DNA from: Phycisphaerae bacterium
GTDB taxonomy: Bacteria > Planctomycetota > Phycisphaerae > Sedimentisphaerales > Anaerobacaceae
Assembly: GCA_030619925.1 (NCBI GenBank)
Contig: JAUXAL010000024.1
Span: forward strand, 1 to 46,527
DNA length: 46,527 bases
Reading direction: 5' to 3'
Every line of letters starts with the position of its first letter. Positions within the stretch are counted from its first letter, which is position 1. The translations under genes were made by a program, and so were the position numbers. Of this stretch, positions 3,374 to 46,527 are shown one piece after another. The notes beneath the pieces are model-generated. The model searched no databases. It was not told the origin of the DNA and saw only the letters and a program-made list of their open reading frames with translations.

Positions 3374-4363
3374 TCAGACGTTCGGGTCCTGCTTATACTT
3401 CGGCTTTTCAGCCCAGTTAAGTTTGCTCGCCAGAGTATCCCATTGGCTCCGAAGCGGATTATTCACGATCAGAAAATCGCAGCTCTGCTTCTCGACCCTC
3501 ACCACATCATCAATTGACAGCCTCAACGAAACCTGGCCATCAACAGAAACGGTCGTGCCTTTATTGACCCGGATGCCAAAGACCTCTACTCTGCTGTCGG
3601 CGTTGATAACAATCGGCCGAAAGCTCAGCGAATGAGGACACATCGGCGTAATAACCATTGCCTCCATCTTAGGCGATAGTATCGGGCCCCCTGCCGATAG
3701 ATTATAAGCCGTTGATCCTGTCGGCGTGGAGATTATCAACCCATCACTAACACAACCGGCGAGCGGTTGACCATCCACCGATATCTTAAGCTCAATCATT
3801 TTAAAGGGCGGCCCCGCCGTGATAAAAATGTCATTGAGAGCTGCTGAGCAAAATTTTTCGGTTCGGTCCCCTTCCCGGCCATCGCTGAAAACTCTACAGC
3901 CCAGCATCATCCGCCTCTCTATCGCAGCCTTTCCCGACGTTAAGCAAGAAAAATAATCTTTAAGTTCGCCAACGCTGAATTCCGCCAGGAAACCAAGCTT
4001 GCCGACGTTAACGCCTATCACCGGCACACTTACTTTACTCAGACTCCTCGCCGTCGCAATGATGCTCCCATCGCCGCCGAAAACAACCGCAAAATCGCAT
4101 TTTTTTGGAATCTCGGCTTTTCTAGGTGTCCGGACAACCGTTTGGGCGTTCGGATCATCCACGACCACCGACTCGGACGAATTGCCGCTGGCGTTCCTTA
4201 AATCCTCAATGCTGTAATTTGCTACTATATCGGCCTTATCTTTCGCAAAACCGACAAATTCCTCAATTGCCTCGCCGACTCCCTCTTTTTTCGGATCACC
4301 GAAAATAACCAATTTGGGCGGAGATTTCGTATCTCGCATCTCGTATCCCTCACCGCGATTCAC
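3374..4363 (-). CDS. nadK: NAD kinase
   Basis: It phosphorylates NAD to NADP in the cytoplasm. The GGDG motif of the NAD kinase/diacylglycerol kinase fold is at residues 96-99 (VVFGGDGSII), the conserved ND pair at about 177-178 (AALNDIF), and the STPTGSTAY/AGGP nucleotide-binding segment at about 212-226. The C-terminal half shows the SFRPIVI and VSVDGQ segments typical of the family. GTG at 4363 overlaps the dxs stop codon, which suggests translational coupling. A better-spaced start is ATG at 4339, behind GTGAGGGA. That ATG lies inside a short repeat (GATACGAGATGCGAGATACG) seen elsewhere in the window, so the extra residues [12 protein letters not shown] are probably repeat-derived. The protein is slightly longer than the usual ~290 residues. 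Identity is firm; the start is uncertain. Confidence 0.93.
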   Translation of the reverse strand: MNRGEGYEMRDTKSPPKLVIFGDPKKEGVGEAIEEFVGFAKDKADIVANYSIEDLRNASGNSSESVVVDDPNAQTVVRTPRKAEIPKKCDFAVVFGGDGSIIATARSLSKVSVPVIGVNVGKLGFLAEFSVGELKDYFSCLTSGKAAIERRMMLGCRVFSDGREGDRTEKFCSAALNDIFITAGPPFKMIELKISVDGQPLAGCVSDGLIISTPTGSTAYNLSAGGPILSPKMEAMVITPMCPHSLSFRPIVINADSRVEVFGIRVNKGTTVSVDGQVSLRLSIDDVVRVEKQSCDFLIVNNPLRSQWDTLASKLNWAEKPKYKQDPNV

Positions 4364-5877
4364 ACTTTCAGCAACTCTTTTGCCGTCTCTACTATTTTAT
4401 CGGCATTTACACCGGCCTCCATAAGCTGAGCATCGCGCGAATTGTGCCCGATAAATCTTCTCGGTGCACCAAGCACCGCTATCGGTTTTGTAATTGCCGT
4501 CCCGAGAGTTGTCGCAGCCAATTCGAGCACAGCCGAGCCGAACCCGCAGGCGATGGTGTGGTCTTCTACCGTGATTATACCCTTGCCCTTGTTGGCCAAC
4601 AGAAAGATCTTCTTATCGACAGGGGCAGCGAACCGCCCATTAATCACATCAACCGCAATCCCCTCCTTAGCCAGCAACGCCGCTGCTGTCAATGCTTCTG
4701 TCAGGACGCTGCCGTAACTGACAATTGCAATAGCTGAATCCTTTGCCTTTTTGACGACCACGCTTTTGCCTAACTTAAACGGCTTGGCACAGGCGGCTCT
4801 GATGAACTTCCGCGGTGGAACAAGGTCCTTCGGATACCTTATGACAACCGGCTTATCTTCACCCAGAGCAAATTCCAGAGCCAGTCTCATTTCAATATCA
4901 TTTGCCGGTGCCGTCAATACCATATTCGGCATCATCCGCAAAAATCCAATATCCATCAAACCGTGATGTGTCGGGCCGTCCGAGCCAACGACCCCAGCCC
5001 TGTCGATGCAAAAAACGACCGGCAGTTTTTGTAACGCCACCTCCTGAACTATCTGGTCAAAGCTCCGCTGTAAAAAGGTCGAATAGATACAGACCACCGG
5101 CTTTAAGCCGCTTCTGCACAGCCCTGCTGCAATATCCACAGCCGCACTCTCGGCAATACCCACATCGTAGAACCTCTCAGCGAACCTTTTGCGAAACTCC
5201 ACCAGCCCCGTGCCATCACACATCGCCGAGGTGATAGCAACAATTCTATTGTCCTTTTTCGCTAACTCTGTCAGATGCTTACCGAATACATTGGTGAAGT
5301 TCTGCCTGCTCGGTGCCAAGGTTGACTCAACAGCACCTCTGTTTGTCTTGAACGGGCCGGTCGAATGAAATTTGCTTGGACGGGAACCGGCTGGCCGAAA
5401 ACCTTTGCCCTTCTTTGTGTAAACGTGCAGAATTGCCGGGTGATTCAACTCGGCCAACGCCCTGAACAACTGTATAAGTGAGCCGATATCATGTCCGTCA
5501 ACCGGACCAAAGTACGGGATATTCAGGCTCTCAAACATCTGACTGGCCGGCAGAACCATTCGAATACTTTTCTTAATTCTTTCAATGGCTTCCTCAACAC
5601 TTTTGCCGATAACGGGCATGTGCTCTAAAATATTGCGGGTGGTCTTGCGCAAATCCTCATAGGTCTGGCTTAGCCGCACTTTGGAGAAGTATTTCGCCAC
5701 TGCCCCCTGAGTAGGGTCTATCGCCATCGAGTTGTCATTGAGCACGATTAGCAACTGCCTCTTGACCAATCCGAGATTATTGAGCGCCTCGAAAGAAATG
5801 CCGTTAACGATACTGGCATCGCCAACTACTGCGACGATTTTATTCGTATTGCGTATTGCGCATTGCGTTTCTGTTTT
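4360..5877 (-). CDS. dxs: 1-deoxy-D-xylulose-5-phosphate synthase, C-terminal part (frameshifted)
   Basis: This is the larger part of DXS, the thiamin-diphosphate enzyme that condenses pyruvate and glyceraldehyde 3-phosphate in the first step of the MEP isoprenoid pathway. The first ATG is at 5769, but homologous sequence is open back to 5877 and includes the thiamin-binding block [13 protein letters not shown] followed by VLNDNSMAI. The Glu of the IAEQH motif is kept ([10 protein letters not shown]) although QH is replaced by SA. The Asp and His of the DGQTH motif are kept (SDGPTHHG). The transketolase pyrimidine and C-terminal domains are complete to the stop, which overlaps nadK. It is one frame off the N-terminal part (5826-6323), so full-length DXS needs a -1 shift or a sequence correction near 5870-5880. 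Either a pseudogene, recoding, or a one-base assembly error is possible. Confidence 0.88.
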
Positions 5878-6323
5878 TTATTATTTAATTGTTCATTTTT
5901 TATTTTTAATTCTTCACCTATCGCCATCCCAATTGCCGTCGCTATCGAGGTCCCGGCATGTCCGACGACGAACTGGTCATACACACTTTCAGCCGGATTT
6001 GGAAAGCCACTTATCCCATCAGCCCGGCGAAGATGCTCGAATTTGTCTTTTCTTCCGGTAATAATCTTATGCGTATAGCATTGATGGCCAACGTCCCAGA
6101 GCAGCTTGTCGGCTTTGAAATCGAAGACATAGTGCAGTGCCAGTGTCAGCTCCACTACACCGAGGTTACTTGCCAGATGTCCGCCGGTTTTACTGACCGA
6201 GTCGAGAATAAACTGGCGTATTTCGTCGGCCAGTGTCTTTAGCTCCGGCACTGACAGTTTCTTCACGTCCGCTGGACTTTCAACCCCGTTTAGAAACTTC
6301 CTCTTTTCGTTCGATTTTTGCAT
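5826..6323 (-). CDS. dxs: 1-deoxy-D-xylulose-5-phosphate synthase, N-terminal part (frameshifted)
   Basis: This is the N-terminal portion of DXS. It has the typical order [17 protein letters not shown], then the [14 protein letters not shown] block with the conserved His, [16 protein letters not shown], and [19 protein letters not shown]. After GEEL the frame enters a Lys/Asn/Gln-rich low-complexity stretch ([19 protein letters not shown]) and stops at 5826. The expected continuation ([10 protein letters not shown]) is read from the neighbouring frame. ATG at 6323 is the plausible start; the TTG at 6335 lacks a ribosome-binding site, while AAGGG precedes the ATG at somewhat long spacing. The start region and residues KFLNGV lie inside an inverted-repeat element (6284-6362). 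Together the two parts make a DXS of normal size plus about 24 inserted residues. Confidence 0.85.
5843..5917 (-). repeat. low-complexity repeat inserted in dxs
   Basis: On the coding (minus) strand an A-rich stretch (TTAAAAATAAAAAATGAAC) runs into a GCAATGCGCAATACGCAATACG tandem motif (quoted here in parts: GCAATGCG, CAATACG twice). The stretch matches the AT-rich and short tandem repeats seen between genes in this window (9.3, 14.8 and 41.9 kb). DXS homologues have no such segment between GEELK and KIVAVVGD. It contains a run of six A at the point where the reading frame changes. I infer an insertion; the exact borders are approximate. Confidence 0.7.
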
Positions 6324-6362
6324 AATATTATTCAACCCTTTTCAATCAAGTTTCTAACGGGG
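6284..6362. repeat. inverted-repeat element spanning the dxs start
   Basis: The arms CCCCGTTTAGAAACTT (6284-6299) and AAGTTTCTAACGGGG (6348-6362) match over 15 bases with one extra T. The 48 bases between them contain the dxs start codon and the AAGGG upstream of it. The same arm sequence (CCCCGTTAGAAAT / ATTTCTAACGGGG) bounds a 59-bp insertion in the thymidylate-synthase-like gene at 13647-13705, which makes this a dispersed element. No terminal target duplication is evident by eye. Confidence 0.75.
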
Positions 6363-6759: not shown

Positions 6760-7023
6760 ATGGCAAGAAAGTTATTGGTCGGCTGGTTTATGGAGTGTCT
6801 GGCGTGTAAGGCAACCTTTATTCGTTCTACGCCGGCGAATTGGGCAATTGGACAAAAAGGCAGGATTTTCGCGAACGACACGCGGCAACAGACTCCCGGC
6901 CAAGACACCGGAGTTGTCAGGCAATATTTTTTTACAAGTAAACGAAAATTTGTGGGATTTGTCAGATGCCCTGATTGCTTATCTGCGAATGTTCGATTGA
7001 TGGAGATTGGTGATGGAAAATAA
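6760..7023 (+). CDS. small zinc-ribbon-like protein
   Basis: This is a short protein (87 residues from ATG 6760, or 77 from ATG 6790) with two CxxC pairs: MECLACKATFIRS near the start and FVRCPDCLSANVRLME near the end, a plausible zinc ribbon. I do not recognise a named family. It overlaps the start of the HNH-AP2 gene by 11 bases (its TAA is at 7021-7023), a typical coupled arrangement, which suggests the two act or move together. The frame extends upstream to 6577 through repeat sequence, so the start is uncertain. No strong ribosome-binding site is visible. It could be a nucleic-acid-binding partner of the endonuclease or a decayed mobile-element gene. Confidence 0.5.
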   Translation: MARKLLVGWFMECLACKATFIRSTPANWAIGQKGRIFANDTRQQTPGQDTGVVRQYFFTSKRKFVGFVRCPDCLSANVRLMEIGDGK

Positions 7024-7603
7024 GCGATTCATCTTTCTTAGTACTAAGGAAAGCGGACGCAACAGCTCTTTTGCGGAGAACGGAGAGGATTTCAGGCTCA
7101 TACCTTTAACGCAAGGCCAATTCGCTATTGTAGATGCCGAGGATTACGATCGGCTGGCGCAACACAAATGGTGTGCCGTGAAGGGCAGAGATACTTTTTA
7201 CGCCCAGCGATTTAAAGATGGAAAAATAGTAGGCATGCATCGGGAGATTATGCGGGCGCCGAAAGGCATGATGTGCGACCATAGAAATCACAACGGGCTT
7301 GATAATCGCAAAAGCAATCTTCGTCTTTGTACGAGTGCACAGAATCAGTACAACAAGAGGCCCAAAAAAGGCTGCACATCGAGATACAAGGGTGTGGTTT
7401 TAAGAAGTGATTGTAAAAGATGGCGTGCGAAAATTGGTTTTAACAGGAAGCGGATGCATCTGGGTGATTTTGCCAATGAGACACAGGCAGCGATGGCTTA
7501 TGATGATAAAGCAATTGAGCTTTTCGGCGAATTTGCCTGGCTCAACTTCCCGGAAAGAATAGACCTGCGAAACTGGATACGAAAGATTGTGTGGGCAGCG
7601 TAA
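7013..7603 (+). CDS. HNH endonuclease with AP2 DNA-binding domain
   Basis: This is a homing-endonuclease-like nuclease of 196 residues. After an N-terminal NUMOD/HNH-associated region (IPLTQGQFAIVDAEDYDRLAQHKW) comes the HNH core (HREIMRAPKGMMCDHRNHNG, then LDNRKSNLRLCT) with the expected His, Asn and His. A C-terminal AP2/ERF domain follows (SRYKGVVLRSDCKRWRAKI, then HLGDFANETQAAMAYDDKAI and LNFPE). ATG at 7013 is chosen because GGAG lies 7 bases upstream; the TTG at 7007 is less likely. HNH-AP2 proteins are common in phages, introns and free-standing mobile loci. Here the gene lies on the strand opposite to dxs and ispA, between them, which suggests an insertion. No intron or intein is visible beside it. 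Confidence 0.88.
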   Translation: MENKRFIFLSTKESGRNSSFAENGEDFRLIPLTQGQFAIVDAEDYDRLAQHKWCAVKGRDTFYAQRFKDGKIVGMHREIMRAPKGMMCDHRNHNGLDNRKSNLRLCTSAQNQYNKRPKKGCTSRYKGVVLRSDCKRWRAKIGFNRKRMHLGDFANETQAAMAYDDKAIELFGEFAWLNFPERIDLRNWIRKIVWAA

Positions 7604-8376: not shown

Positions 8377-9294
8377 TTACTTTGTTCTTTCCAGCAAGGC
8401 CATAGCCAATTGCCGCAGCGTATCGGCTTTTTTCCCAAAAGGCTCCAATACTGCCACAGCCTCATCGGCCAGCTTCTTCTGCAACTCTTTTGCCTTTTCA
8501 ATTCCCACTACCGCTGGGTAAGTGCACTTGGCCGCCTTGGCGTCTTTACCGGCTGTCTTGCCTAACTGCTCGCTCGAGGCGCTTACATCGAGAATGTCAT
8601 CAGCTATCTGAAAACCCAGGCCAATTTTTAAGCCATATTCACACAAACAGTCGAATTGCTTCTTTCCTGCGCCGCCACAGATGGCTCCCATCGCAGCAGC
8701 GCATCGGAACATCTTGGCCGTCTTGTTGGTATGAATATATTCTAAGATTTCCTCACCGCCGGTGCTTCTTTCAGCTTTCAAATCCGCCATTTGCCCTGCA
8801 ATCATACCGGACGGTCCGGCATCCTGCGCCAATTGACCAATTAATTTTACCGCGATAGTCGGCTCGTCAATCTCTTTTGCCAGAATCTCAAAGGCAAGTG
8901 TCAAAAGGGCATCACCAGCCAGAATAGCCGTCGCCTCATCGAAAACCTTATGGCAGGTAGGTAACCCTCGCCGAAAGTCGTCATCATCCATCGCCGGCAA
9001 ATCGTCGTGAATAAGCGAATAAGTATGTACCATTTCAATCGCCGCCGCCGCGATCTCAGCGTTGTGGTTGGGTTCGGGCCCGCCTTTTTTTGCGGGCGGG
9101 GTCCCGTTTACTTGCCCGCCGACAAGCTCGCAGCACCAGAGCACCAATACCGACCGCACTCTTTTGCCCGGCGCTTCAAGGACGTACCTAAGCGCTTCTT
9201 TCAAATCGCCGTCTATCTGCTGGAAAGCTAAAAGTCGCTGCAAAGTATCATTCACGAACTGCGCCTTCTTGCGTAACCGAGCATTGAAGTCCAT
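8377..9294 (-). CDS. ispA: polyprenyl synthetase (farnesyl/geranylgeranyl diphosphate synthase)
   Basis: It elongates allylic diphosphates with isopentenyl diphosphate downstream of the MEP pathway. The first Asp-rich motif is SLIHDDLPAMDDDDFRRG, followed by PTCHKVFDEATAILAGDAL. The second is GLGFQIADDILDVSAS. GKRVRSVLVLWCCELVGG is the diphosphate-binding N-terminal region. The DDxxxxD form of the first motif and the length of 305 residues match bacterial FPP synthases. Between ELVGG and the helix AAAAIEMVHTYSLIHDD sits an extra segment (QVNGTPPAKKGGPEPNHNAE) encoded by a GGGCCCGCC...GGCGGGGTCCC palindrome (9070-9105), an in-frame insertion. dxs is on the same strand about 2 kb further on, separated by the HNH locus. 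Product chain length is not certain. Confidence 0.92.
   Translation of the reverse strand: MDFNARLRKKAQFVNDTLQRLLAFQQIDGDLKEALRYVLEAPGKRVRSVLVLWCCELVGGQVNGTPPAKKGGPEPNHNAEIAAAAIEMVHTYSLIHDDLPAMDDDDFRRGLPTCHKVFDEATAILAGDALLTLAFEILAKEIDEPTIAVKLIGQLAQDAGPSGMIAGQMADLKAERSTGGEEILEYIHTNKTAKMFRCAAAMGAICGGAGKKQFDCLCEYGLKIGLGFQIADDILDVSASSEQLGKTAGKDAKAAKCTYPAVVGIEKAKELQKKLADEAVAVLEPFGKKADTLRQLAMALLERTK
9070..9105. repeat. palindromic element inserted in ispA
   Basis: The plus strand reads GGGTTCGGGCCCGCC, then seven T, then GCGGGCGGGGTCCCGTT. CCCGCC (9079-9084) and GGCGGG (9095-9100) pair, flanked by GGGCCC and GGGTCCC boxes. The same boxes bound elements at 11588, 32683, 33720, 41993 and 44691. The extra residues keep the ispA frame open. 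Confidence 0.7.
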
Positions 9295-9412: not shown

Positions 9413-10336
9413 ATGGTTCTAATTCTCGGCGTTACCGCATCCGGCAAAGGGCGATTGGCCTTTGGTCTGGCCAAAAGCGTGGGTGCTGAAATAATCAGCA
9501 TCGACTCGATGAAGGTCTATCGGCGAATGGACGTCGGCACCGCCAAGCCGCCCAAAGAGGCCCGCGCGGCGCTAAAGTATCATTTAATCGATGTGGTTGA
9601 GCCAAGCGACTCATTCAGCGTAGGGGCCTTTCTCGAATTGGCTTACAAAGCAATAGAGCAGATAAAGAGTCGCAAGAAACCCATAATCGCGGTCGGCGGA
9701 ACTGCCTTATATATAAAGGCCCTGCTCTACGGCCTTTTCGAAGGCCCCGGAACTAACGAGCAAATACGTGCTGAACTGAGAGCACGAGCACAAGCCGAAG
9801 GTTTGGCACAACTCCATCGCGAATTAACGAAAATCGACCCCGTAGCCGCCGACCGCATCAGCCCCAACGACTCCAAACGTATAATCCGAGCCCTGGAGGT
9901 TTACAAAACTACAGGCAAACCTATCTCAAGTCTCCAGAAACAATTCAACGCTAAAAAACCTGTACACGACTGGACGATAGTAGGCCTACGGAGAGAAAAA
10001 ACCGACGCCAACAACCGAATAAACAGAAGGGTAAAAAAGATGATTGCCGCCGGTCTTGTCGATGAAGTCAGATCCCTTCTGGCCGAAGAAAAACCTTTAA
10101 GCCCGCAGGCCCGATGTGCCATCGGTTACGCTGAAATAATCGATTACCTCTCCGGCCAAATAGGGCTGGAAAACGCAACAGAACTGATAAAGAAGAACAC
10201 CCGACGTTTAGCCAAGAACCAGCGCACCTGGTTCAAAACCTTTAAAAATGTCCACTGGCTCGATATCGAGCCGGAAGAACCCCCGGAAAAAATCCTCGAC
10301 CGCACGAAGACATTATTGAGCGGTCTTTTCACTTAG
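9413..10336 (+). CDS. miaA: tRNA dimethylallyltransferase
   Basis: It transfers a dimethylallyl group to A37 of tRNAs reading UNN codons, consuming an isoprenoid made through the dxs/ispA route. The P-loop GVTASGKG lies at residues 6-13, followed by IISIDSMKVYRRMDVGTAKP with the catalytic Asp and the substrate-binding DSMQVY-type motif. HLIDVVEPSDSFSVGAF and GGTALYIKALLYGLFEGP are family signatures, and ARCAIGYAEIIDYLSG with KNTRRLAKNQRTWFK closes the protein. The length of 307 residues is normal. Its stop overlaps the stop of the convergent ATP-cone gene by four bases (TTAG read from both sides). Confidence 0.95.
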   Translation: MVLILGVTASGKGRLAFGLAKSVGAEIISIDSMKVYRRMDVGTAKPPKEARAALKYHLIDVVEPSDSFSVGAFLELAYKAIEQIKSRKKPIIAVGGTALYIKALLYGLFEGPGTNEQIRAELRARAQAEGLAQLHRELTKIDPVAADRISPNDSKRIIRALEVYKTTGKPISSLQKQFNAKKPVHDWTIVGLRREKTDANNRINRRVKKMIAAGLVDEVRSLLAEEKPLSPQARCAIGYAEIIDYLSGQIGLENATELIKKNTRRLAKNQRTWFKTFKNVHWLDIEPEEPPEKILDRTKTLLSGLFT

Positions 10337-17975: not shown

Positions 17976-18077
17976 ACCCATCCGGTATATGAGATTAACA
18001 ACGGAACAGAAGGTCGATTTTGCGCATCTTACGGGACGGCAGCGGAACGTTGGACAAGATTGAGGAGCATTATTATT

Positions 18078-18896
18078 ATGAGCAAACGACGTGGATTCAC
18101 TTTAATCGAACTTTTGGTGGTAATCGCCATTATTGCACTATTAATGGCGATATTGATGCCGGCGCTGCAGCGGGTAAAGGAACAAGCCAAAACAGTTGGC
18201 TGCCTGGCAAACCTCAAACAGTGGAACTTTGTCTGTGCAATGTATACTGAAGACAACGATGGTAAATTCTGGTCCGGCTTTGGTAGTACAGGTTATTGGT
18301 GGGTGTTGCAATTAGAACCTCGGGTTAAAGACTGGAAGACGAATAAAACCTGGTTCTGTCCGACGGCAAAAAAACCGATAATTGACGAAAATGGCAACAT
18401 GATACCGTCATTCAACATCTTTAACGCATGGGGAATCTTTGAAAAGCAGCGCGATGGATATGACTCTGGTCCAAACGGTGTGGCCGGAAGCTATAGCATC
18501 AATGGCTATGTTCTTACTATACCTACCAACGCTACATTTGAAGGGGGCAGACCTGCCGCAGACGGCTGGAGGACGCCCAACACAGCCGGCGCAGGCAATG
18601 TGCCATTGTTCGTAGATGCCCTCCGCTTCGACCTCTGGCCGTTAGAAACCGCTGGTCCTGCCGAGTATGAGTTCGCGGCCTGGTCCGACAACAATTTCGG
18701 CCGCTGCTGTATTAACCGACACGCGGGTTTTGTGTGCTGCTCTTTCCTGGATTATTCTGCCAGAAAAGTCGGTCTTAAGGAGTTGTGGACCCTAAAGTGG
18801 CACAAGACATTCGATACAACGGGCCCTTATACGTTGGCCGGTGGTATCCAGTCCGCCGGTTGGCCAGAATGGATTAGACGTTTTAAAGACTATTGA
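18078..18896 (+). CDS. prepilin-type N-terminal cleavage/methylation protein, copy 1
   Basis: This is a pseudopilin-like protein, first of nine in a row. A short basic leader (MSKRRG) ends in Gly(-1), followed by [20 protein letters not shown], the hydrophobic helix with Phe+1 and Glu+5 recognised by a prepilin peptidase. The ~240-residue globular part ends in [20 protein letters not shown], an H-X9-D block in which the usual DG of planctomycete H-X9-DG proteins is DY. ATG 18078 has AGGAG 10 bases upstream. It is followed by a terminator (18919-18945), so it may form its own transcript from the two promoters upstream. A type II secretion/pilus-like envelope role is inferred. Confidence 0.85.
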
Positions 18897-18918
18897 AAAT
18901 GACCCATGCACATAAAAG

Positions 18919-18945
18919 GCTGGCCTTTTGGGCCTGGCTTTTTTT
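18919..18945 (+). terminator. terminator after prepilin copy 1
   Basis: GCTGGCC and GGCCTGGC pair with one bulge and two G-U pairs around loop TTTTG, followed by seven T. Confidence 0.65.
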
Positions 18946-19001
18946 GCTGACCGGTTTTTTAAAAAAACATTTTTGGGCGTAGAAGAAAATAAGATATTAT
19001 T

Positions 19002-19793
19002 ATGTGCGACAGAGAAGGGTTCACGCTAATAGAACTCTTGGTGGTAATCGCCATCATCGCGGTATTGATGGCCATCTTGATGCCGGCACTAAACCGGGTC
19101 AGAGAACAGGGCAAGCGGGCCGTTTGTCTTAACAACCTCAGGCAGCTGGGCCTTACGTGGAATGCGTATGCAGACGATAACGATGAAAAGATGGTCAACG
19201 GCGATACGGGTGAGTACACTTCCATGTACAGCCCGGGCGGCGGCCACTATAATGAGACTCCCTGGGTACTCAAAGATTGGCGCACCGAAGATATAGACGC
19301 GAAAAGAAATGCCATACTGGACGGAGCCCTATTTCCATATTGCAAGGACCTAAAACTTTACAAGTGCCCTACCGGTGTGCGAGGAGAGTTGCGTACGTAC
19401 GCTGTGGTTGATTCTATGAATTGTAGAGGCTGGACCCATCGTTCGGACATGCCAGGTTCAGTGATGCTGAAAAAAAGAACGGACATTCGCAGGCCAGGCG
19501 AAAGATTCGTTTTTCTTGATGATGGCGGCGTCGGTGACGCCCACCTGGGTGGTTGGACCACTTATGTCAAGGAGGAGAAATGGTGGGATCCGCCGCCAAT
19601 TCGACACGGTGTCGGAACGAATTTTTCCTTCGCAGACGGGCACAGTGAATACTGGAAATGGAAAGACCCGCGTACCCTGGAGCTTGGCTGGCGGGCGATT
19701 GAAATAAAGAGGGCTATAAGAGACTTACAGCCGGGCAATGAGGACATCCGAAGGTGCCAATATGCCCTGTGGGGCTCGGCGGCGTTAAGGTAG
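19002..19793 (+). CDS. prepilin-type protein with canonical H-X9-DG motif, copy 2
   Basis: It has a very short leader (MCDREG) then [20 protein letters not shown]. It is the most divergent member with copy 9. The C-terminal region has [18 protein letters not shown], an intact H-X9-DG motif, unlike the eight other genes. At 263 residues it is the shortest. It probably represents a separate subfamily interleaved in the array. No good ribosome-binding site is visible before ATG 19002. Confidence 0.85.
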
Positions 19794-19886
19794 AGTGTAA
19801 ACGGCACAGTCGCGGCAATAAGCGTACTTTTTTGTGCCGGTTAATTCTTGGAAAACGTTTTTGAGAGGGAAGGAGAAGAACGTATC

Positions 19887-20720
19887 ATGCGCAAACGAAA
19901 AGGCTTCACGCTAATAGAGCTGTTGGTAGTGATCGCTATCATCGCGTTGTTGATGGCAATATTGATGCCGGCGCTGCAGCGGGTAAAGAAACAGGCAAAA
20001 ACAGTCATTTGTCAGGCCCACCTCAAAGAATGGGCCGTTATCTTTGCAATGTATACCGACGATAACAACGGCAATTTCCCCGAGCGCAGGAGCGGCAGCA
20101 GCGGTTACGGGCGCTGGATGGACTCAATGCGGGAATACTACATTAGCGCCCCAGACATACGCCTCTGCCCCGTGGCCAATAAACTCGCGAACCCCAGCAT
20201 GGAAACAACGGGGGTCGACTGGTGGGGCAGCACTTTTGTAGCCTGGGGCAGGATTCCTTATTGGGATGCCGGAGGAGGGCGTACAGCAAGTTATTACGGC
20301 AGCTATGGGGTAAATGGCTATATTTATGTGCCGATCGGCGCTGACGTCTATGGAAAACCGCCCGAAAGATTCTGGAGAACTCCTAATGTTAAAGGTGCAA
20401 ACAATATACCGATGTTCATGGACTGCTATTTCTGGTGTGGATGGCCGGATGACACCAACACCCCTCCGGAATACGATGGCTGGCAAAATCGCAGTGATAC
20501 GGATGCAATAAACCGTTTCTGCCTCAACCGCCACGATGGATTCATAAACGCCGCTTTTGTGGACTATACCGTCAGAAGAGTGGGGCTTAAGGAGATGTTC
20601 ACGCTCAAGTGGAGTCGTGTATACAACACAGCCAACGCGTGGACTACAGCCGGCGGCATCTTGCCAACCGACTGGAGAAATCATGGGACCGGCTGGTTGG
20701 CAAAATTTAAGGACTATTGA
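19887..20720 (+). CDS. prepilin-type protein, copy 3
   Basis: Leader MRKRKG with Gly(-1), then [23 protein letters not shown] 19887 is preferred to 19848 because AGGGAAGGAG lies upstream and it gives a normal leader. The C-terminal block is NRHDGFINAAFVDYTVRRVG (H-X9-DY). The globular domain is close to copy 4 (shared [28 protein letters not shown]), and both end FKDY. Confidence 0.85.
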   Translation: MRKRKGFTLIELLVVIAIIALLMAILMPALQRVKKQAKTVICQAHLKEWAVIFAMYTDDNNGNFPERRSGSSGYGRWMDSMREYYISAPDIRLCPVANKLANPSMETTGVDWWGSTFVAWGRIPYWDAGGGRTASYYGSYGVNGYIYVPIGADVYGKPPERFWRTPNVKGANNIPMFMDCYFWCGWPDDTNTPPEYDGWQNRSDTDAINRFCLNRHDGFINAAFVDYTVRRVGLKEMFTLKWSRVYNTANAWTTAGGILPTDWRNHGTGWLAKFKDY

Positions 20721-20817
20721 GAAGAACCGCTGCTGCACTAAAGCAGGCAAAGAAACGCTGTTTTGCCGGACTCATAATTAATACAGAATTGCGAAAAATA
20801 AAACAGTCAGAAGATGA

Positions 20818-21651
20818 ATGACGAATATTATGATAAAGCAAAAAGGGGCGTTCACGTTAATAGAGCTTTTGGTAGTGATTGCTATCATCGCGTTGTTGAT
20901 GGCAATATTGATGCCGGCGCTGCAGCGAGTAAAGAAACAGGCGAAAACAGTTATTTGTCAGGCCCACCTCAAAGAATGGGCCACTATCTTTGCAATGTAT
21001 ACGGACGATAACAACGGTTATTTCCCCGAGCGCAGGGGCGGCGGTAGCGCTTACGGGCGATGGATGGACTCGATGCGGGAATACTACATTACCACAGAAG
21101 ATATACGCTGCTGCCCAACGGCCACAAAACTGGCAAATCCAACCGGAGAAGTCGGCGCGAACATCTGGGGCGGACCGTTTACGGCCTGGGGAAAGCTCTA
21201 TGCCACGTCCGGGCGGACACCAGGTTATTATGGCAGCTATGGGATAAATGGCTACCTTTATGTGCCCATCGGCACAGTCTATGGAAAACCGCCCGAAAGA
21301 TTCTGGGGAACTGCTAATGTTAAAGGTGTAGGCAATATACCGATGTTTCTGGACTGCTGGGCATGGTGCGGCTGGATTGATGATACCGACACGCCTTCGG
21401 AATATGATGGCCAGATAAGAACTGGTGACGTAGATTCAATAAACCGTTTCTGTCTCAACCGCCACGAAGGATCCATAAACGCCGCTTTTCTGGACTATAC
21501 TGTCAGAAAAGTAGGGCTCAAGGAGTTGTTCACGTTCAAGTGGAGTCGTATATACAACACAGCCAACGCCTGGACTACAGCCGGCGGCGTCACGCCGGCC
21601 GACTGGAAAAATCATGGGACCGGCTGGCTGGCAAAATTTAAGGACTATTGA
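20818..21651 (+). CDS. prepilin-type protein, copy 4 (Ala at -1)
   Basis: It is close to copy 3. The leader is MTNIMIKQKGA with Ala, not Gly, immediately before FTLIELLV, an unusual cleavage site for prepilin peptidases. The C-terminal block is NRHEGSINAAFLDYTVRKVG. By alignment with copy 5 the start may be ATG 20830, but the GGAGG seen there has decayed here (GAATGACG). Confidence 0.85.
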   Translation: MTNIMIKQKGAFTLIELLVVIAIIALLMAILMPALQRVKKQAKTVICQAHLKEWATIFAMYTDDNNGYFPERRGGGSAYGRWMDSMREYYITTEDIRCCPTATKLANPTGEVGANIWGGPFTAWGKLYATSGRTPGYYGSYGINGYLYVPIGTVYGKPPERFWGTANVKGVGNIPMFLDCWAWCGWIDDTDTPSEYDGQIRTGDVDSINRFCLNRHEGSINAAFLDYTVRKVGLKELFTFKWSRIYNTANAWTTAGGVTPADWKNHGTGWLAKFKDY

Positions 21652-21759
21652 AAGAGTCACTGCTGCGCTAAAGCAGGCAAAGAAACGCTGCTTTGCAAAA
21701 CTAATAATCAATACATAATCGCGAAAAATAAGACAACCTGAAGATAAGGGAGGAATATT

Positions 21760-22578
21760 ATGAAAAAACAGCAGAGGGCATTCACGTTAATAGAGCTCTT
21801 GGTAGTAATTGCTATCATCGCGTTGTTGATGGCGATATTGATGCCGGCGCTGCAGCGGGTCAGGAAACAGGCAAAAACTGTCATGTGCCTGTCAAACCTC
21901 AAGCAATGGGGCACTATCTTTGCCATGTATACCGACGACAACAACGGCTTCTTTCCCAGACGCACAAGCGGTTCAGGGCGCTGGATAAATGTCCTGTACG
22001 ACTACTACTATCGAGATGCCAAGATACGCTGCTGCCCAGCAGTGACAAAAATTAAGAATCCGGTTTACCCGCCCGGGGGCAGCGGCACATTTGGAGTAGG
22101 TGGCGACACGTTTACGTCCTGGGGCAAGGTGGGTGTAACCGGCTCGCGGCCAGCCGGCGAGTACGAGCCAGCCGGTACGTGGGGCAGCTATGGAATCAAC
22201 CACTGGGTCTATGTGGCCGCGCAAGACCCACTTTACAACCAGGCCGCCAAGGACTACTGGGGAACAGTCAATGTGAAGGGCGTCGCCAGCATTCCGCTGT
22301 TCCTGGACTGCTGGTTCTGGTGTGCCGGGCCGGAGAATGACGATACGCCCCCCAGCTTTGACGGCGAACGGTTCGACCCTCATATAGATTCCATGAACCG
22401 GTTCTGCCTCAACCGTCATCAACAGGGCATAAACGGCGTCTTTTTGGACTACTCGGCCCGGAAAGTCTGGCTGAAGGAATTGTGGCACGTGAAATGGGCC
22501 AGGAACTTTAATATAAATTACCCCGAACCGTACTGGCCAACCGAAGCACCTTGGATGGCAAACTTCAAAGACCATTGA
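21760..22578 (+). CDS. prepilin-type protein, copy 5 (Ala at -1)
   Basis: The leader is MKKQQRA, again with Ala(-1) before FTLIELLV. A strong AAGGGAGG precedes ATG 21760, the best ribosome-binding site in the array. The globular domain belongs to the copy 5-8 subgroup ([43 protein letters not shown]). The C-terminal block is [20 protein letters not shown]. It ends FKDH. Confidence 0.86.
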   Translation: MKKQQRAFTLIELLVVIAIIALLMAILMPALQRVRKQAKTVMCLSNLKQWGTIFAMYTDDNNGFFPRRTSGSGRWINVLYDYYYRDAKIRCCPAVTKIKNPVYPPGGSGTFGVGGDTFTSWGKVGVTGSRPAGEYEPAGTWGSYGINHWVYVAAQDPLYNQAAKDYWGTVNVKGVASIPLFLDCWFWCAGPENDDTPPSFDGERFDPHIDSMNRFCLNRHQQGINGVFLDYSARKVWLKELWHVKWARNFNINYPEPYWPTEAPWMANFKDH

Positions 22579-22658
22579 AAATAACAGCTGCCCAAAGGCA
22601 AACATAGAAGTCCTGATTCGGTTGAACCCGTGTAACGGTATTATGAAAAACTGAATTA

Positions 22659-23501
22659 ATGAGAAAATATGCAAGGACTATTACTGTAAACAGGCAAAGA
22701 GGTTTTACGTTAATAGAACTTCTGGTAGTGATTGCTATCATTGCGTTGTTGATGGCGATATTGATGCCGGCGCTGCAGCGGGTAAAGAAACAGGCAAAAA
22801 CGGTTATCTGCCAGTCAAACCTCAAGCAGTGGGGCACTATCTTTGCCATGTATACCGACGACAACAACGGCTTCTTTCCCAGACGCATGAGCGGTTCAGG
22901 GCGTTGGATAAATGTCCTGTACGACTACTATTATCGGGATGCCAAGATACGCTGCTGCCCAACGGCGACAAAAATTAAGCACCCAGTTTACCCACCCGGG
23001 GGCACCGGCACACTTGGAGCAGGTGGTGACGCGTTTACGTCCTGGGGCAAGATAGGTGTGACCTCCGGGCGGCCAGCCGGCCCGTATGAGCCAGCCGGCA
23101 CGTGGGGCAGCTATGGAATCAACCACTGGCTCTATGTCGCCGCGCAAGACCCACTTTACGACCAGCCCGCCAAATACTACTGGGGAACAGTCAACGTGAA
23201 GGGCGGTAATAACATTCCGCTATTCCTGGACTGCTGGTTTTGGTGTGGCGGGCCGGAGAATGACGATACGCCCCCGGCATGGGATGGCCATAGGATAACC
23301 GGTCATACAGAATCCATGAACCGGTTCTGCATCAACCGACATCAACAGGGCATAAACGGCGTCTTTTTGGACTATTCGGCCAGGAAGGTTTGGTTGAAGG
23401 AATTGTGGCACGTGAAATGGGGCAGGAACTTTAATATAAATGCCCCCGAACCATACTGGGAAACCGAAGCACCTTGGATGGCACACTTCAAGGCGCATTG
23501 A
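22659..23501 (+). CDS. prepilin-type protein, copy 6 (first 923-bp repeat unit)
   Basis: The leader is the longer [15 protein letters not shown] with Gly(-1), then FTLIELLV. Where copy 9 has GAGGAGTATTATGAAC, this gene has AAGGACTATTACTGTAAAC, so the ancestral start and ribosome-binding site are mutated and translation presumably begins at the upstream ATG. The protein is nearly identical to copy 7, including [20 protein letters not shown]. Its start lies exactly 923 bases before that of copy 7. Confidence 0.86.
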
Positions 23502-23581
23502 AAATAACGACTGCCCAAAGGCAAACATAGAAGTCCTGATTCGGCTGAACCCGTGTAACGGTATTATGAAAAACTGAATTA

Positions 23582-24424
23582 ATGAGAAAATACGCAAGGA
23601 CTATTATTGTAAACGAACAAAGAGGTTTTACGTTAATAGAACTTCTGGTAGTGATTGCTATCATCGCGTTGTTGATGGCAATATTGATGCCGGCGCTGCA
23701 GCGGGTCAGGAAACAGGCAAAAACTGTTATTTGCCAGTCAAACCTCAAGCAGTGGGGCACTATCTTTGCCATGTACACCGACGACAACAACGGCTTCTTT
23801 CCCAGACGCATGAGCGGTTCAGGCCGTTGGATAAATGTCCTGTACGACTACTACTATCGGGATGACAAGATACGCTGCTGCCCAATGGCGACAAAGATTA
23901 AGAACCCGGTTTACCCTAACTCGGTCAGCAACGGGCTTGAAGTAGGTGGCGACGCGTTTACGTCCTGGGGCAAGATAGGTGTGACCTCCGGGCGGCCATC
24001 CGGCCCGGACGGGCCAGCCGGTACGTGGGGCAGCTATGGAATCAACCACTGGGTCTATGTGGCCGCGCAAGACCCACTTTACGACCAGCCCGCCAAATAC
24101 TACTGGGGAACAGTCAATGTGAAGGGCGGTAATAACATTCCGCTGTTCCTGGACTGCTGGTTTTGGTGCGGCGGGCCGGAGAATGACGATACGCCCCCGG
24201 CATGGGATGGCCATAGGATAACCGGTCATACAGAATCGATGAACCGGTTCTGCATCAACCGACATCAACAGAGCATAAACGGCGTTTTTTTGGACTATTC
24301 GGCCAGGAAGATTTGGTTGAAGGAATTGTGGCACGTGAAATGGGGCAGGAACTTTAATATAAATGCCCCCGAACCATACTGGGAAACCGAAGCACCTTGG
24401 ATGGCACATTTCAAGAACCATTGA
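23582..24424 (+). CDS. prepilin-type protein, copy 7 (second 923-bp repeat unit)
   Basis: It is almost a duplicate of copy 6; visible differences cluster in one short stretch ([18 protein letters not shown] versus the copy 6 [13 protein letters not shown]) and a few scattered residues. The leader is [15 protein letters not shown]. The C-terminal block is [20 protein letters not shown]. The upstream spacer is also nearly identical to that of copies 6 and 8, so the duplicated unit includes the intergenic DNA. Confidence 0.86.
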
Positions 24425-24504
24425 AAATAACAGCTGCCCAAAGGCAACCATAGAAGTCCTGATTCGGTTGAACCCGTGTAACGGTATTATGAAAAACTGA
24501 ATTA

Positions 24505-25338
24505 ATGAGAAAATACGCAAGGACTATTATTGTAAACAGGCAAAGAGGTTTTACGTTAATAGAACTTCTGGTAGTGATTGCTATCATCGCGTTGTTGATG
24601 GCAATATTGATGCCGGCGCTGCAGCGGGTAAAGAAACAGGCAAAAACGGTTATTTGCCAGTCAAACCTCAAGCAGTGGGGCACTATCTTTGCCATGTATA
24701 CCGACGACAACAACGGCTTCTTTCCCAGACGCACGCAGTCGGGCGGTCGTTGGATAAACGTCCTGTACGACTACTACTATCGGGAAGAGAAGATACGCGT
24801 CTGCCCCATGGCGACAAGAATTAAGGTCCCGACTTACCCGCCCGGGGCCAGCAGCACACTTGCAGCAGGTGGCGACACATTTACGTCCTGGGGCAAGGTG
24901 GGTATGACGCCAAACGAAAGCTGGGGGCCAGTCGGTACGTACGGCAGCTATGGAATCAACCACTGGGTCTATGTGGCCGGGCAAGACCCGCTTTATGGCC
25001 AGTCCGCCAAATATTACTGGAGGACGGTCAATGTCAAGGGCGGCGGTAACATTCCGCTGTTCCTGGACTGCTGGTTCTTTTGCGGTGGACCGGAGAATGA
25101 CGATACGCCCCCCAGCTATGACGGCGAACGGCTCGCGCCTCATGTAGAATCCATGAACCGCTTTTGCATTAACAGGCACCAGCAAGGCATAAACGGCATC
25201 TTTTTGGACTATTCGGCCAGGAAAGTGTGGCTCAAAGAATTGTGGCACGTGAAATGGGCCAGGAACTTTGATATAAATGCCCCCGAACCCCACTGGGAAA
25301 CCGAAGCACCTTGGATGGCACACTTCAAGGCCCATTGA
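24505..25338 (+). CDS. prepilin-type protein, copy 8 (third repeat unit)
   Basis: The first ~65 codons and the last ~90 are close to copies 6 and 7; the middle differs more ([40 protein letters not shown]), as expected for an older duplicate or one reshuffled by gene conversion. The leader is [15 protein letters not shown]. The C-terminal block is [20 protein letters not shown]. Confidence 0.86.
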
Positions 25339-25442
25339 AAATAACGGCTGCTCAAGAACAAACATAAAAGTCCTGGTTCGGCTGAACGCGTGCTACGGCA
25401 TTGCGAAAAACTGAATTAGTGATAAAATATGTGAGGAGTATT

Positions 25443-26255
25443 ATGAACAAGCAAAGAGGTTTTACGTTAATTGAACTTCTGGTGGTAATCGCTATCATTG
25501 CCGTATTGATGGCGATATTGATGCCGGCGCTGCAGCGGGTAAAGGAACAGGCAAGAGAGATGACCTGTAGGGCGAACCTGCGTCAATACGGCCTGGCACA
25601 GACCGTATACCTGGACGACAATGACGACCGCTATCCTTATTCATGGACCTCGCTCGTCGCCAATGAGCGTCCTGTGAGCGGGTACGAGCGTTACTGTCGA
25701 TGGCACGACCCGAGATATCCGCCTGACGGACCATTTTGGTCCTATCTGCCGGAAGCGAAGGTCCACCTCTGCCCATCGTTCAAAGTCCTTGCCAAGTCCG
25801 AGGGTACAAGGCATCCCAGACATGTTGCTTCCAATCCGGTTATTCCTCAATACAGTTACAGCATGAACTCCTGGTTAGGCTCGAAGTCAGGCGACCCAGG
25901 CGGCTCTTCCAAAACAGACTCCAAAGGACGGGGCGGAGTTCGTAAACGTTCCGAGATAACGAGAAGCAAAGCGGAGGTATTTTTTTTCGCTGAGGAGAAT
26001 ATGTGGCCCAGGTCGGGCAATAGCAATGTACTCAACGACAACGCCTTGTGTCCCGATGGCCGCGACTGGTTTGGTACCTTTCATAGTGCATCGAGCGCAG
26101 ACCTCAACAGCGGAACAATCAATGCGGTCTTTGTGGACGCCCATGTCGAAGAAGTGCGGTCGGCCTTAAAAGAGGACCCTTACGACCACTCAGAAAAGGA
26201 GTTCGGCATGTTCGAGAAACACGGCTGGCCAAACAAACAGCCGTTTCAACAGTGA
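25443..26255 (+). CDS. prepilin-type protein, copy 9 (divergent)
   Basis: The leader is MNKQRG, then [26 protein letters not shown] precedes ATG 25443, which is preferred to the upstream ATG 25401. The globular domain differs from copies 3-8 ([42 protein letters not shown]), and the C-terminal block is [15 protein letters not shown], another departure from DG. It resembles other planctomycete H-X9-DG relatives more than its neighbours, so it is probably an independent family member that flanks the amplified block. Confidence 0.84.
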
Positions 26256-44378: not shown

Positions 44379-44690
44379 AGTTAACTAACCAATTGAAAAG
44401 AGTGGGTCGGGCGGTTGCCCCCGTCGTTTTGCTTAGCAAAAGCGAAGCAGCGGGGGAGGAAAGTCCGGGCAGGACAGGGCACGGTGGTGGCTAACAGCCA
44501 CCGGGGGCAACCCCAGGGAAAGTGCCACAGAAAATACACAGCCGATGTCCAACACCAAGAAGAGCTTCGGCTCACGCCGTTTTGGTGCTGGAACAGGCAA
44601 TGGTGAAATGGTGCGGCAAGAGCGCACCGCAGTGCCGGTGACGGTACTGGCAGGGCAAACCCCACCGCCTGCAAGACCAAGTAGCTGGCT

Positions 44691-44727
44691 GGGTTCCCAT
44701 TTTGCGACTGCTTGCAAAATGGGGCCC
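44691..44727 (+). repeat. palindromic element inside RNase P RNA
   Basis: CCCATTTTGC (44696-44705) and GCAAAATGGG (44714-44723) are perfect 10-bp arms bounded by GGGTT and GGCCC. The first 15 bases equal 11588-11602 upstream of nrdR. Confidence 0.8.
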
Positions 44728-44841
44728 GCTACTCGGCCCGAGTGTGAGCGGCTAAACTTAGCGCTCGGCCAGCGGGTAGGTCGCTTCCCGATGTATCGGG
44801 AGAGCTAACTGGTAACAGTTGGTCAAGATAAATGGCCGCCG

Positions 44842-44945
44842 CCCCGCACCAAAAGTTTATTCAATTGAAAACTTTGAAGAACAGATAAATGGCAATGCAA
44901 CCACGTTGAAACAAAACGAAAAACGGATGAACTTTTGGTGCGGGG
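44842..44945 (+). repeat. 16-bp inverted repeat extending RNase P RNA
   Basis: CCCCGCACCAAAAGTT (44842-44857) and AACTTTTGGTGCGGGG (44930-44945) are perfect complements around 72 AT-rich bases. AAAGTTT/AAACTTT can form an alternative inner hairpin, and AGATAAATGGC occurs both just before the first arm and inside the loop. Confidence 0.8.
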
Positions 44946-45166
44946 ATACAGAACTCGGCTTACAGACCCACTCTTTTTTTTCATATCTCGTATTTTGCCT
45001 CACACGTCGTGCTCCACGAGATGCGAATTTATGCGCAAGCGCACCTGAGCGGATTTTGACTGTGACAATATCGTCCTCAACGACCATTTTGCAAAAAATC
45101 GCAGGACGGGGCCCGAACCCACGTGAGAATTCATGGACCACGAACTACAAACTGTGAGTTACAAAA

Positions 45167-46171: not shown

Positions 46172-46527
46172 AATATTTCCCTTTTCATCCAGTTTTTTCA
46201 AATTGTTTTATTATTCGACATTCTCCCAGCAATTATATTAAACTGACATTTCCCATTTAGACACTTAAAAAATACAATTTTCTCCGTACGACATCCCCAG
46301 CAAAAAGTTTGAAATTGGGTTTGTTTGGCTTTGAATTGGGTTTGAATTGGGTTTGTTTTTTCGGGGCCTGAAAGCGGTTTCATTTCCATAATCCTTTGTG
46401 ACAAAGACGTTTGCGTTCATTTTAGGCTTTACGGAAATTGGGTTTGAATTGGGTTTGTTTTTTCGGACTGCGAAATCATCTTTTTTTATGTAATCCTTTG
46501 TTAAAGTTAAGTTTACATTCATTTGGG
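46172..46527. repeat. repeat-rich non-coding region upstream of ilvC
   Basis: I see no gene. From about 46300 the DNA is built from copies of GAATTGGGTTTGAATTGGGT and a longer unit with GGTTTGTTTTTTCGG, then about 30 bases, then ATCCTTTGT. That longer unit appears twice (from about 46345 and 46455). Minus-strand translation reads KPNSNPIQ-type repeats. The window ends inside it. Confidence 0.65.

Follow-up and report, generated by a model that had tools for sequence, protein, structure and literature searches.

Palindromic elements of ∼100–150 bp are inserted in frame in the protein genes of Rickettsia and kept as peptide inserts, and the short tandemly repeated repetitive (STRR) sequences of cyanobacteria are dispersed heptanucleotide repeats. 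Dispersed heptanucleotide repeats of bacteria have also been described among the long simple sequence repeats (LSSRs; Mrazek, 2007, as reported in PMC4679880), and the units on record include GGGAATC and GGGGA(C/T)T in Xanthomonas and Nostoc (PMC4692102) and TAACTGA in marine Beggiatoaceae (PMC4679880). Within a coding sequence, the neuO gene of Escherichia coli K1 phage CUS-3 gives the full-length protein only if the number of its heptad repeats is divisible by 3 (PMC13001214). The present analysis concerns the dxs gene, encoding 1-deoxy-D-xylulose-5-phosphate synthase (DXS), in a Phycisphaerae bacterium of the family Anaerobacaceae (GenBank assembly GCA_030619925.1, contig JAUXAL010000024.1). 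The whole stretch analysed, positions 1 to 46,527 of the forward strand, is referred to as the window; it corresponds to contig C13 in a genome assembly of 4.02 Mb and 141 contigs, 92.8% complete, and a search for the genus returned this genome alone. In the window, dxs is divided between two reading frames whose junction lies in a tract of 7-bp tandem repeats.

The dxs Gene Occupies Two Overlapping Frames

No single open frame runs through all the DXS domains in the window. The gene occupies two frames of the minus strand, frame 2 being −1 relative to frame 1, as follows:

6335–5826, minus strand: dxs N-terminal part, frame 1 (ORF1), DXP_synthase_N profile positions 1–134
5877–4360, minus strand: dxs C-terminal part, frame 2, stop-free, DXP_synthase_N profile positions 161–274, reaching the C-terminus
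5826–5877, minus strand: 52-nt overlap of the two open frames, to which any frame switch is confined

The Pfam domain DXP_synthase_N (274 profile positions) is divided between both open reading frames (ORFs), and the TIGR00204 model (616 positions) is covered at 4–134 and 130–614 by the two parts. The original prediction of two complementary DXS parts in frames differing by −1 was borne out by these coordinates and by the 52-nt overlap; its placement of the switch inside a low-complexity insertion also stood, with the wording refined to a 7-bp periodic tract by Tandem Repeats Finder.

The first listed start of ORF1 is TTG at 6335, with an ATG at 6323, and the frame spans from GGHLASNL and terminates at TAG. 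In frame 2 the last stop upstream is TAA at 5880–5878, and the sequence TAAAAAAC is found at 5880–5873 of the minus strand. There are no additional stops inside either part. The first ATG, GTG, or TTG of frame 2 is TTG at 5769, downstream of GDASIVNG, so that a separate start of the C-terminal part would lose this motif; translation of that part as a protein of its own was rejected, no start codon of the three kinds being available ahead of GDASIVNG. A natural split enzyme was also rejected, as the break falls inside the thiamine diphosphate (ThDP) domain and the relatives are unsplit. The Pfam scan took in 44 window ORFs of at least 110 amino acids, 40 with a family and 4 without, and no further gene split across two frames was found among the other 42 window ORFs of this length. 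A second dxs above the family cut-off was not found in the 92.8%-complete genome; the remaining genome matches to the profile were other ThDP enzymes with weak scores of 20–75 bits.

A 7-bp Tandem Repeat Lies in the Turn before GDAS

The frame overlap is held by an insert of ∼76 nt, a low-complexity tract of heptanucleotide (7-bp) tandem repeats. Tandem 7-bp units within a coding sequence, as known from neuO, are present in dxs. The parts of the insert are as follows:

5841–5868, minus strand: 3′ heptad block, unit CGCAATA/TATTGCG, period 7 and 4.1 copies by Tandem Repeats Finder
5874–5916, minus strand: 5′ A-rich block, likewise 7/21-bp periodic
5874–5879, minus strand: A6 run within TAAAAAAC, the slip site proposed originally, with no in-frame X_XXY_YYZ

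Tandem Repeats Finder also reported period 7 with 5.3 copies and 73% matches at 5875–5911. The insert site is the turn that connects a helix to the strand ahead of GDAS, the ThDP/Mg motif. Compared with E. coli DXS (2O1S), the DXS of G003, a genome of another genus with the gene in frame, carries its extra residues in this same turn, where the strand runs on to GD(G/A). A structure model made for the G003 protein was poor (mean pLDDT 65.2, pTM 0.55, 31 sequences); its residues 139–160 around the insert fall below 50 pLDDT, as do other segments, so that nothing firm can be said from it on the loop.

The Same Loop Is Expanded in Frame in Relatives

The loop was delimited from GHAGT to GDAS in 122 dxs loci, 4 of which were dropped as they were without the motif pair, giving 80 distinct loop DNAs. 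A length of 90 nt, regarded as the ancestral type, was found in 43 of the 80, and 35 of the 80 exceeded 99 nt. All but one of these 35 expanded loops are in frame, the sole exception being that of the window (140 nt). Summed over the 35 expanded loops, identity was 0.433 and 0.415 at lags 7 and 14, respectively, compared to 0.275–0.294 for every other lag between 4 and 13; the 43 loops of 90 nt gave 0.255 at lag 7. When single loops were compared with their shuffles, the 7-bp signal reached p ≤ 0.05 in 19/35 and the minimum possible p of 0.002 in 14/35. It appears that the loop before GDAS is tolerant of heptad tracts in many relatives. In a hand count, complete one-frame dxs was present in 71 of 90 genomes of the family; the other 19 comprised the window and 18 genomes with dxs partial or absent.

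The Most Similar Insert Is Longer by One Unit

Alignment of the window junction with that of G003 (locus L102) showed one internal gap, of 7 nt, placed in the heptad block; the 3′ heptad block of the window (5841–5868) is one 7-nt unit shorter than its counterpart, and the length difference lies outside the A-run. One added unit of 7 nt is a length change of 1 mod 3 and hence matches the observed dxs offset. The global score of the insert against L102 was 99, compared to a shuffle maximum of 49.5 and a score of 64 for the composite uvrC tract from the window's own genome. Over its first 46 nt, the insert is identical to L102 at 36/46 positions without gaps. Against another relative, L101, the gap was 14 nt. 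The G003 gene (L102 2545–4569) was also seen to carry a second in-frame low-complexity insert near the C-terminus, heptad-like by eye (KQKRNMQSWPQAKRRHDIRNTG).

Constraint on dxs and Pathway Context

Together, the two homologous dxs parts cover almost all of the model, and neither has diverged beyond what is seen among relatives, as would be the case for a functional gene. The C-terminal part differed from seven relatives at 81–127 of 493 amino acids, and four pairs of in-frame relatives differed from each other at 104–144 over 493–508 positions. Third codon positions changed most in both parts in the window comparisons, and the terminal branch of the window was below the median in both trees (0.088 vs 0.128 for the C-terminal part; 0.066 vs 0.153 for the N-terminal part). 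Neither relaxed constraint nor further disruption, as expected of a pseudogene, was seen in dxs. Judged from these sequence comparisons, dxs is apparently not a decayed pseudogene.

The genome has ispG and ispH above the cut-offs and no match to HMG-CoA reductase. For dxr (TIGR00243), no match was found in the 92.8%-complete genome, while 80 of the 90 genomes of the family have one and 10 of the 90 do not; its absence may be an assembly gap or a real loss. Genes near dxs are as follows:

3374–4363, minus strand: nadK (NAD kinase), downstream neighbour of dxs (Pfam)
4327–4347, minus strand: heptad tract TCGTATC, 3.0 copies, at the nadK start just after dxs
8380–9294, minus strand: gene of the polyprenyl synthetase family, which draws on isoprenoid precursors (Pfam)
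9413–10333, plus strand: isopentenyl pyrophosphate (IPP) transferase of the miaA family, a user of dimethylallyl pyrophosphate (Pfam)

Heptad Tracts across the Genome and Family

An excess of arrays with a 7-bp period, of the kind known for STRR and LSSR sequences, was found in the genome. In the window, 10 of the 24 Tandem Repeats Finder rows were of period 7, and in 12 further stretches (219,570 bases) 21 of the 44 arrays had a period of 7, 14, or 21; a second-order Markov control gave 8 arrays, none of them of period 7. When 2 mismatches at most were allowed, the pattern ACGMDATACGMDATACGMDA matched the genome 277 times, vs 11 times for its reversed control. At a limit of 1 mismatch, there were 155 matches in this genome, 137 in G003, 250 in G013, and 211 in G023, with few or no matches in most genomes of other families; in all, 28 of 41 genomes were matched. 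Matches were more numerous in nine genomes with an expanded dxs loop than in seven with the 90-nt loop (Mann–Whitney p 0.003, kinship uncorrected). The unit sequences are diverse (e.g., CAATACG, GAAGGCA, CGAGGGA, and TCGAGCA), and only the 7-bp length is common to all.

The survey of tracts covered 142 tracts in 71 partly overlapping stretches of this genome (the window, 18 loci from searches, and 52 other stretches). Twenty-four strand-frames stay open across a tract and for 60 codons or more to either side of it, and 17 rows showed two frames. Judged by eye, only dxs among these 17 represents one gene in two frames, and the others resemble gene junctions, antisense, or non-coding stretches. 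Four of the frames that pass through a tract were confirmed with Pfam as UvrC, MutL, LpxK, and IleRS, the tract being located inside or between domains; PolA, a protein resembling O-antigen ligase, and one resembling prepilin peptidase were named by reading alone. Among the literature matches listed, including those from searches aimed at the taxon and tandem repeats together, there was no description of heptad tracts in Planctomycetota.

Heptad tracts were also observed at or before gene starts, i.e., nadK (4327–4347) and two other loci, L209 and L255 (pheS and hisG by reading), and they appear as if gathered at gene junctions.

Origin of the Frame Offset

The best reading of these observations is a tolerated insert that underwent a recent one-unit length change, through either slipped-strand loss or an assembly or consensus slip. 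The insert would occupy a tolerant turn before GDAS. Heptad DNA built from one uniform unit gives an identical 7-residue peptide whichever frame is read and can be free of stops, and for this reason a tract would do no harm while its length preserves the frame. Loss of one unit (7 nt, 1 mod 3) by a slipped-strand event would put the two halves out of register; such a loss may not have been fixed long enough for decay, and cells with an in-frame number of units would carry the DXS function. This scheme supposes an ancestor with an in-frame length and a length change that is recent or polymorphic. A real, recent slipped-strand loss in the sampled population is regarded as the most likely cause, if somewhat short of probable. 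Several points weigh against it. The block of the window, with about three imperfect units, is short for high slippage rates. G003 has the most similar insert without being the closest relative by the remainder of dxs, as L079, L076, L078, and L101 were nearer in the trees of the separate parts, and L079 has only the 5′ half of the insert in common with the window. The loops of these nearer relatives differ and loops turn over, which makes the ancestral length at the site uncertain; the in-frame ancestor, like the real deletion, is inferred. The missing dxr would fit a loss of the upstream methylerythritol phosphate (MEP) pathway. No significant 7-bp signal was seen in 16 of the 35 expanded loops (shuffles, p > 0.05, uncorrected), so not every expansion of the loop need be heptad-born.

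A tandem unit dropped, or a minority path chosen, during metagenome assembly could also account for the split, with the real gene in frame, and this is entertained as a serious though tentative possibility. The offset equals one tandem unit, the assembly is in 141 contigs, dxs is without excess divergence, the other internal tracts examined in the genome read in frame, and repeat collapse is known for assemblies (review PMC6868369); however, the tract (∼30 nt of heptads, ∼76 nt in total) fits within one short read, and its non-identical units would make collapse harder. Slippage by −1 of the ribosome or the RNA polymerase on A6, leaving dxs functional as it stands, is very unlikely. In its favour, the gene is as conserved as that of relatives and no second dxs was found; A6 lies at the 5′ edge of the overlap, and frame 2 would be entered just past its TAA if a single tRNA slipped on AAA AAA C; transcription slippage on long poly(A) runs rescues genes in insect endosymbionts (PMC5009743). 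Tandem re-pairing, however, would put one tRNA on TAA, with which the codon preceding AAA AAA would need to pair. No X_XXY_YYZ heptamer was found in frame in the overlap or at its 5′ edge, the junction has only six As while efficient transcription slippage in bacteria is reported for runs of nine As or Ts (PMC5009743), and all the other expanded loops keep the frame. With no slippery site, a run of six As, and an offset that is not conserved, programmed −1 frameshifting has poor support; the A-run recoding put forward in the original prediction is weakened on the same grounds. The base error in the A-run that it also offered was rejected, as the only internal gap relative to G003 is the 7 nt of the heptad block, and the insertion need not split dxs by itself, given the 34 distinct expanded loops that stay in frame. 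Its pseudogene backed by another dxs copy found no such copy above the cut-off and no excess divergence. Its view that loss of DXS would be costly was upheld by the lack of a second dxs, the presence of ispG and ispH, and the lack of a match to HMG-CoA reductase.

Even less likely than recoding is a lineage-specific loss, with dxs a young pseudogene and the first MEP steps bypassed or supplied externally. The unmatched dxr, present in most of the family, speaks for it, but ispG and ispH are retained, HMG-CoA reductase was not found, users of isoprenoids lie in the window, dxs shows no excess divergence, and the absence of dxr, for which 10 of the 90 family genomes are without a match, may be a gap in an incomplete genome. 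Adaptive phase variation, in which the number of units would toggle DXS as a contingency locus, is the least likely of all. Its architecture resembles that of neuO (PMC13001214), but neuO was out of register in 42 of 64 genomes vs 1 of 35 expanded dxs loops here, DXS belongs to core metabolism, and the repeats of the tract are few and imperfect. Also unlikely is a length-specific and sequence-independent process that, throughout the family, keeps making 7-bp tracts which invade loops of core enzymes; read as the same peptide in any frame, they would both supply new protein loops and switch the frame reversibly, with the sampled dxs caught in the OFF state.

Other Features of the Window and Genome

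On the plus strand of the window, nine consecutive genes of 263–290 amino acids (18060–26252) each encode a prepilin-type N-terminal methylation motif. An HNH endonuclease with a weak match to an AP2 domain is encoded at 7007–7600, in the interval separating dxs from the gene for polyprenyl synthetase. RNase P RNA (class A, 580 nt) is located at 44399–44978 with several insertions relative to the 367-position model; heptad repeats, looked for by eye in these insertions, were absent. In four loci of the same genome (L187, L208, L211, and L219), a recurring peptide-coding stretch (FMQNKANFRKSQ...ENKSDWTLGENKPN) represents a dispersed repeat family, to which an 11-bp/102-bp tandem repeat at 46307–46524 of the window may belong.

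Comparison with Known Systems

If the length change is real, dxs would be a case of an essential enzyme gene toggled by slippage of a 7-bp tract in a natural population, which would be unusual. Should it prove an assembly slip, the DXS loop has still been filled in frame recurrently by 7-bp DNA, as have loops of UvrC, LpxK, IleRS, and MutL. The reason why bacterial tandem repeats favour 7-bp units, for which a contact with the polymerase has been proposed (Mrazek, 2007, as reported in PMC4679880), could be tested in a lineage such as this, where selection on the reading frame acts on many tracts. Annotators should be aware that split genes in this group may reflect differences in tract length.

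Apart from the turn ahead of the GD(G/A) strand, which E. coli DXS (2O1S) has in a short form and which is expanded here, the two enzymes can be aligned in domain order, in the ThDP motif region, and in the C-terminal domains. The Rickettsia palindromic elements are similar in being in-frame inserts and differ in being defined as palindromic elements; the inserts here are tandem heptads. With the dispersed heptanucleotide repeats of other bacteria, the genome shares many short tandem tracts of 7-bp units scattered genome-wide. Those described are mostly intergenic or have one consensus per genome, whereas many unit sequences with only the 7-bp length in common are found here, in tracts lying in frame in genes of housekeeping enzymes. 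The likeness to neuO lies in tandem 7-bp units within the coding sequence, the number of which, modulo 3, decides the downstream frame. The neuO gene (PMC13001214) is a dispensable, surface-modifying gene with 3 to 53 near-perfect repeats at its 5′ end and is frequently OFF; dxs, in contrast, encodes a core enzyme with about three imperfect units in an internal loop, and the frame is kept in 34 of 35 expanded loops.

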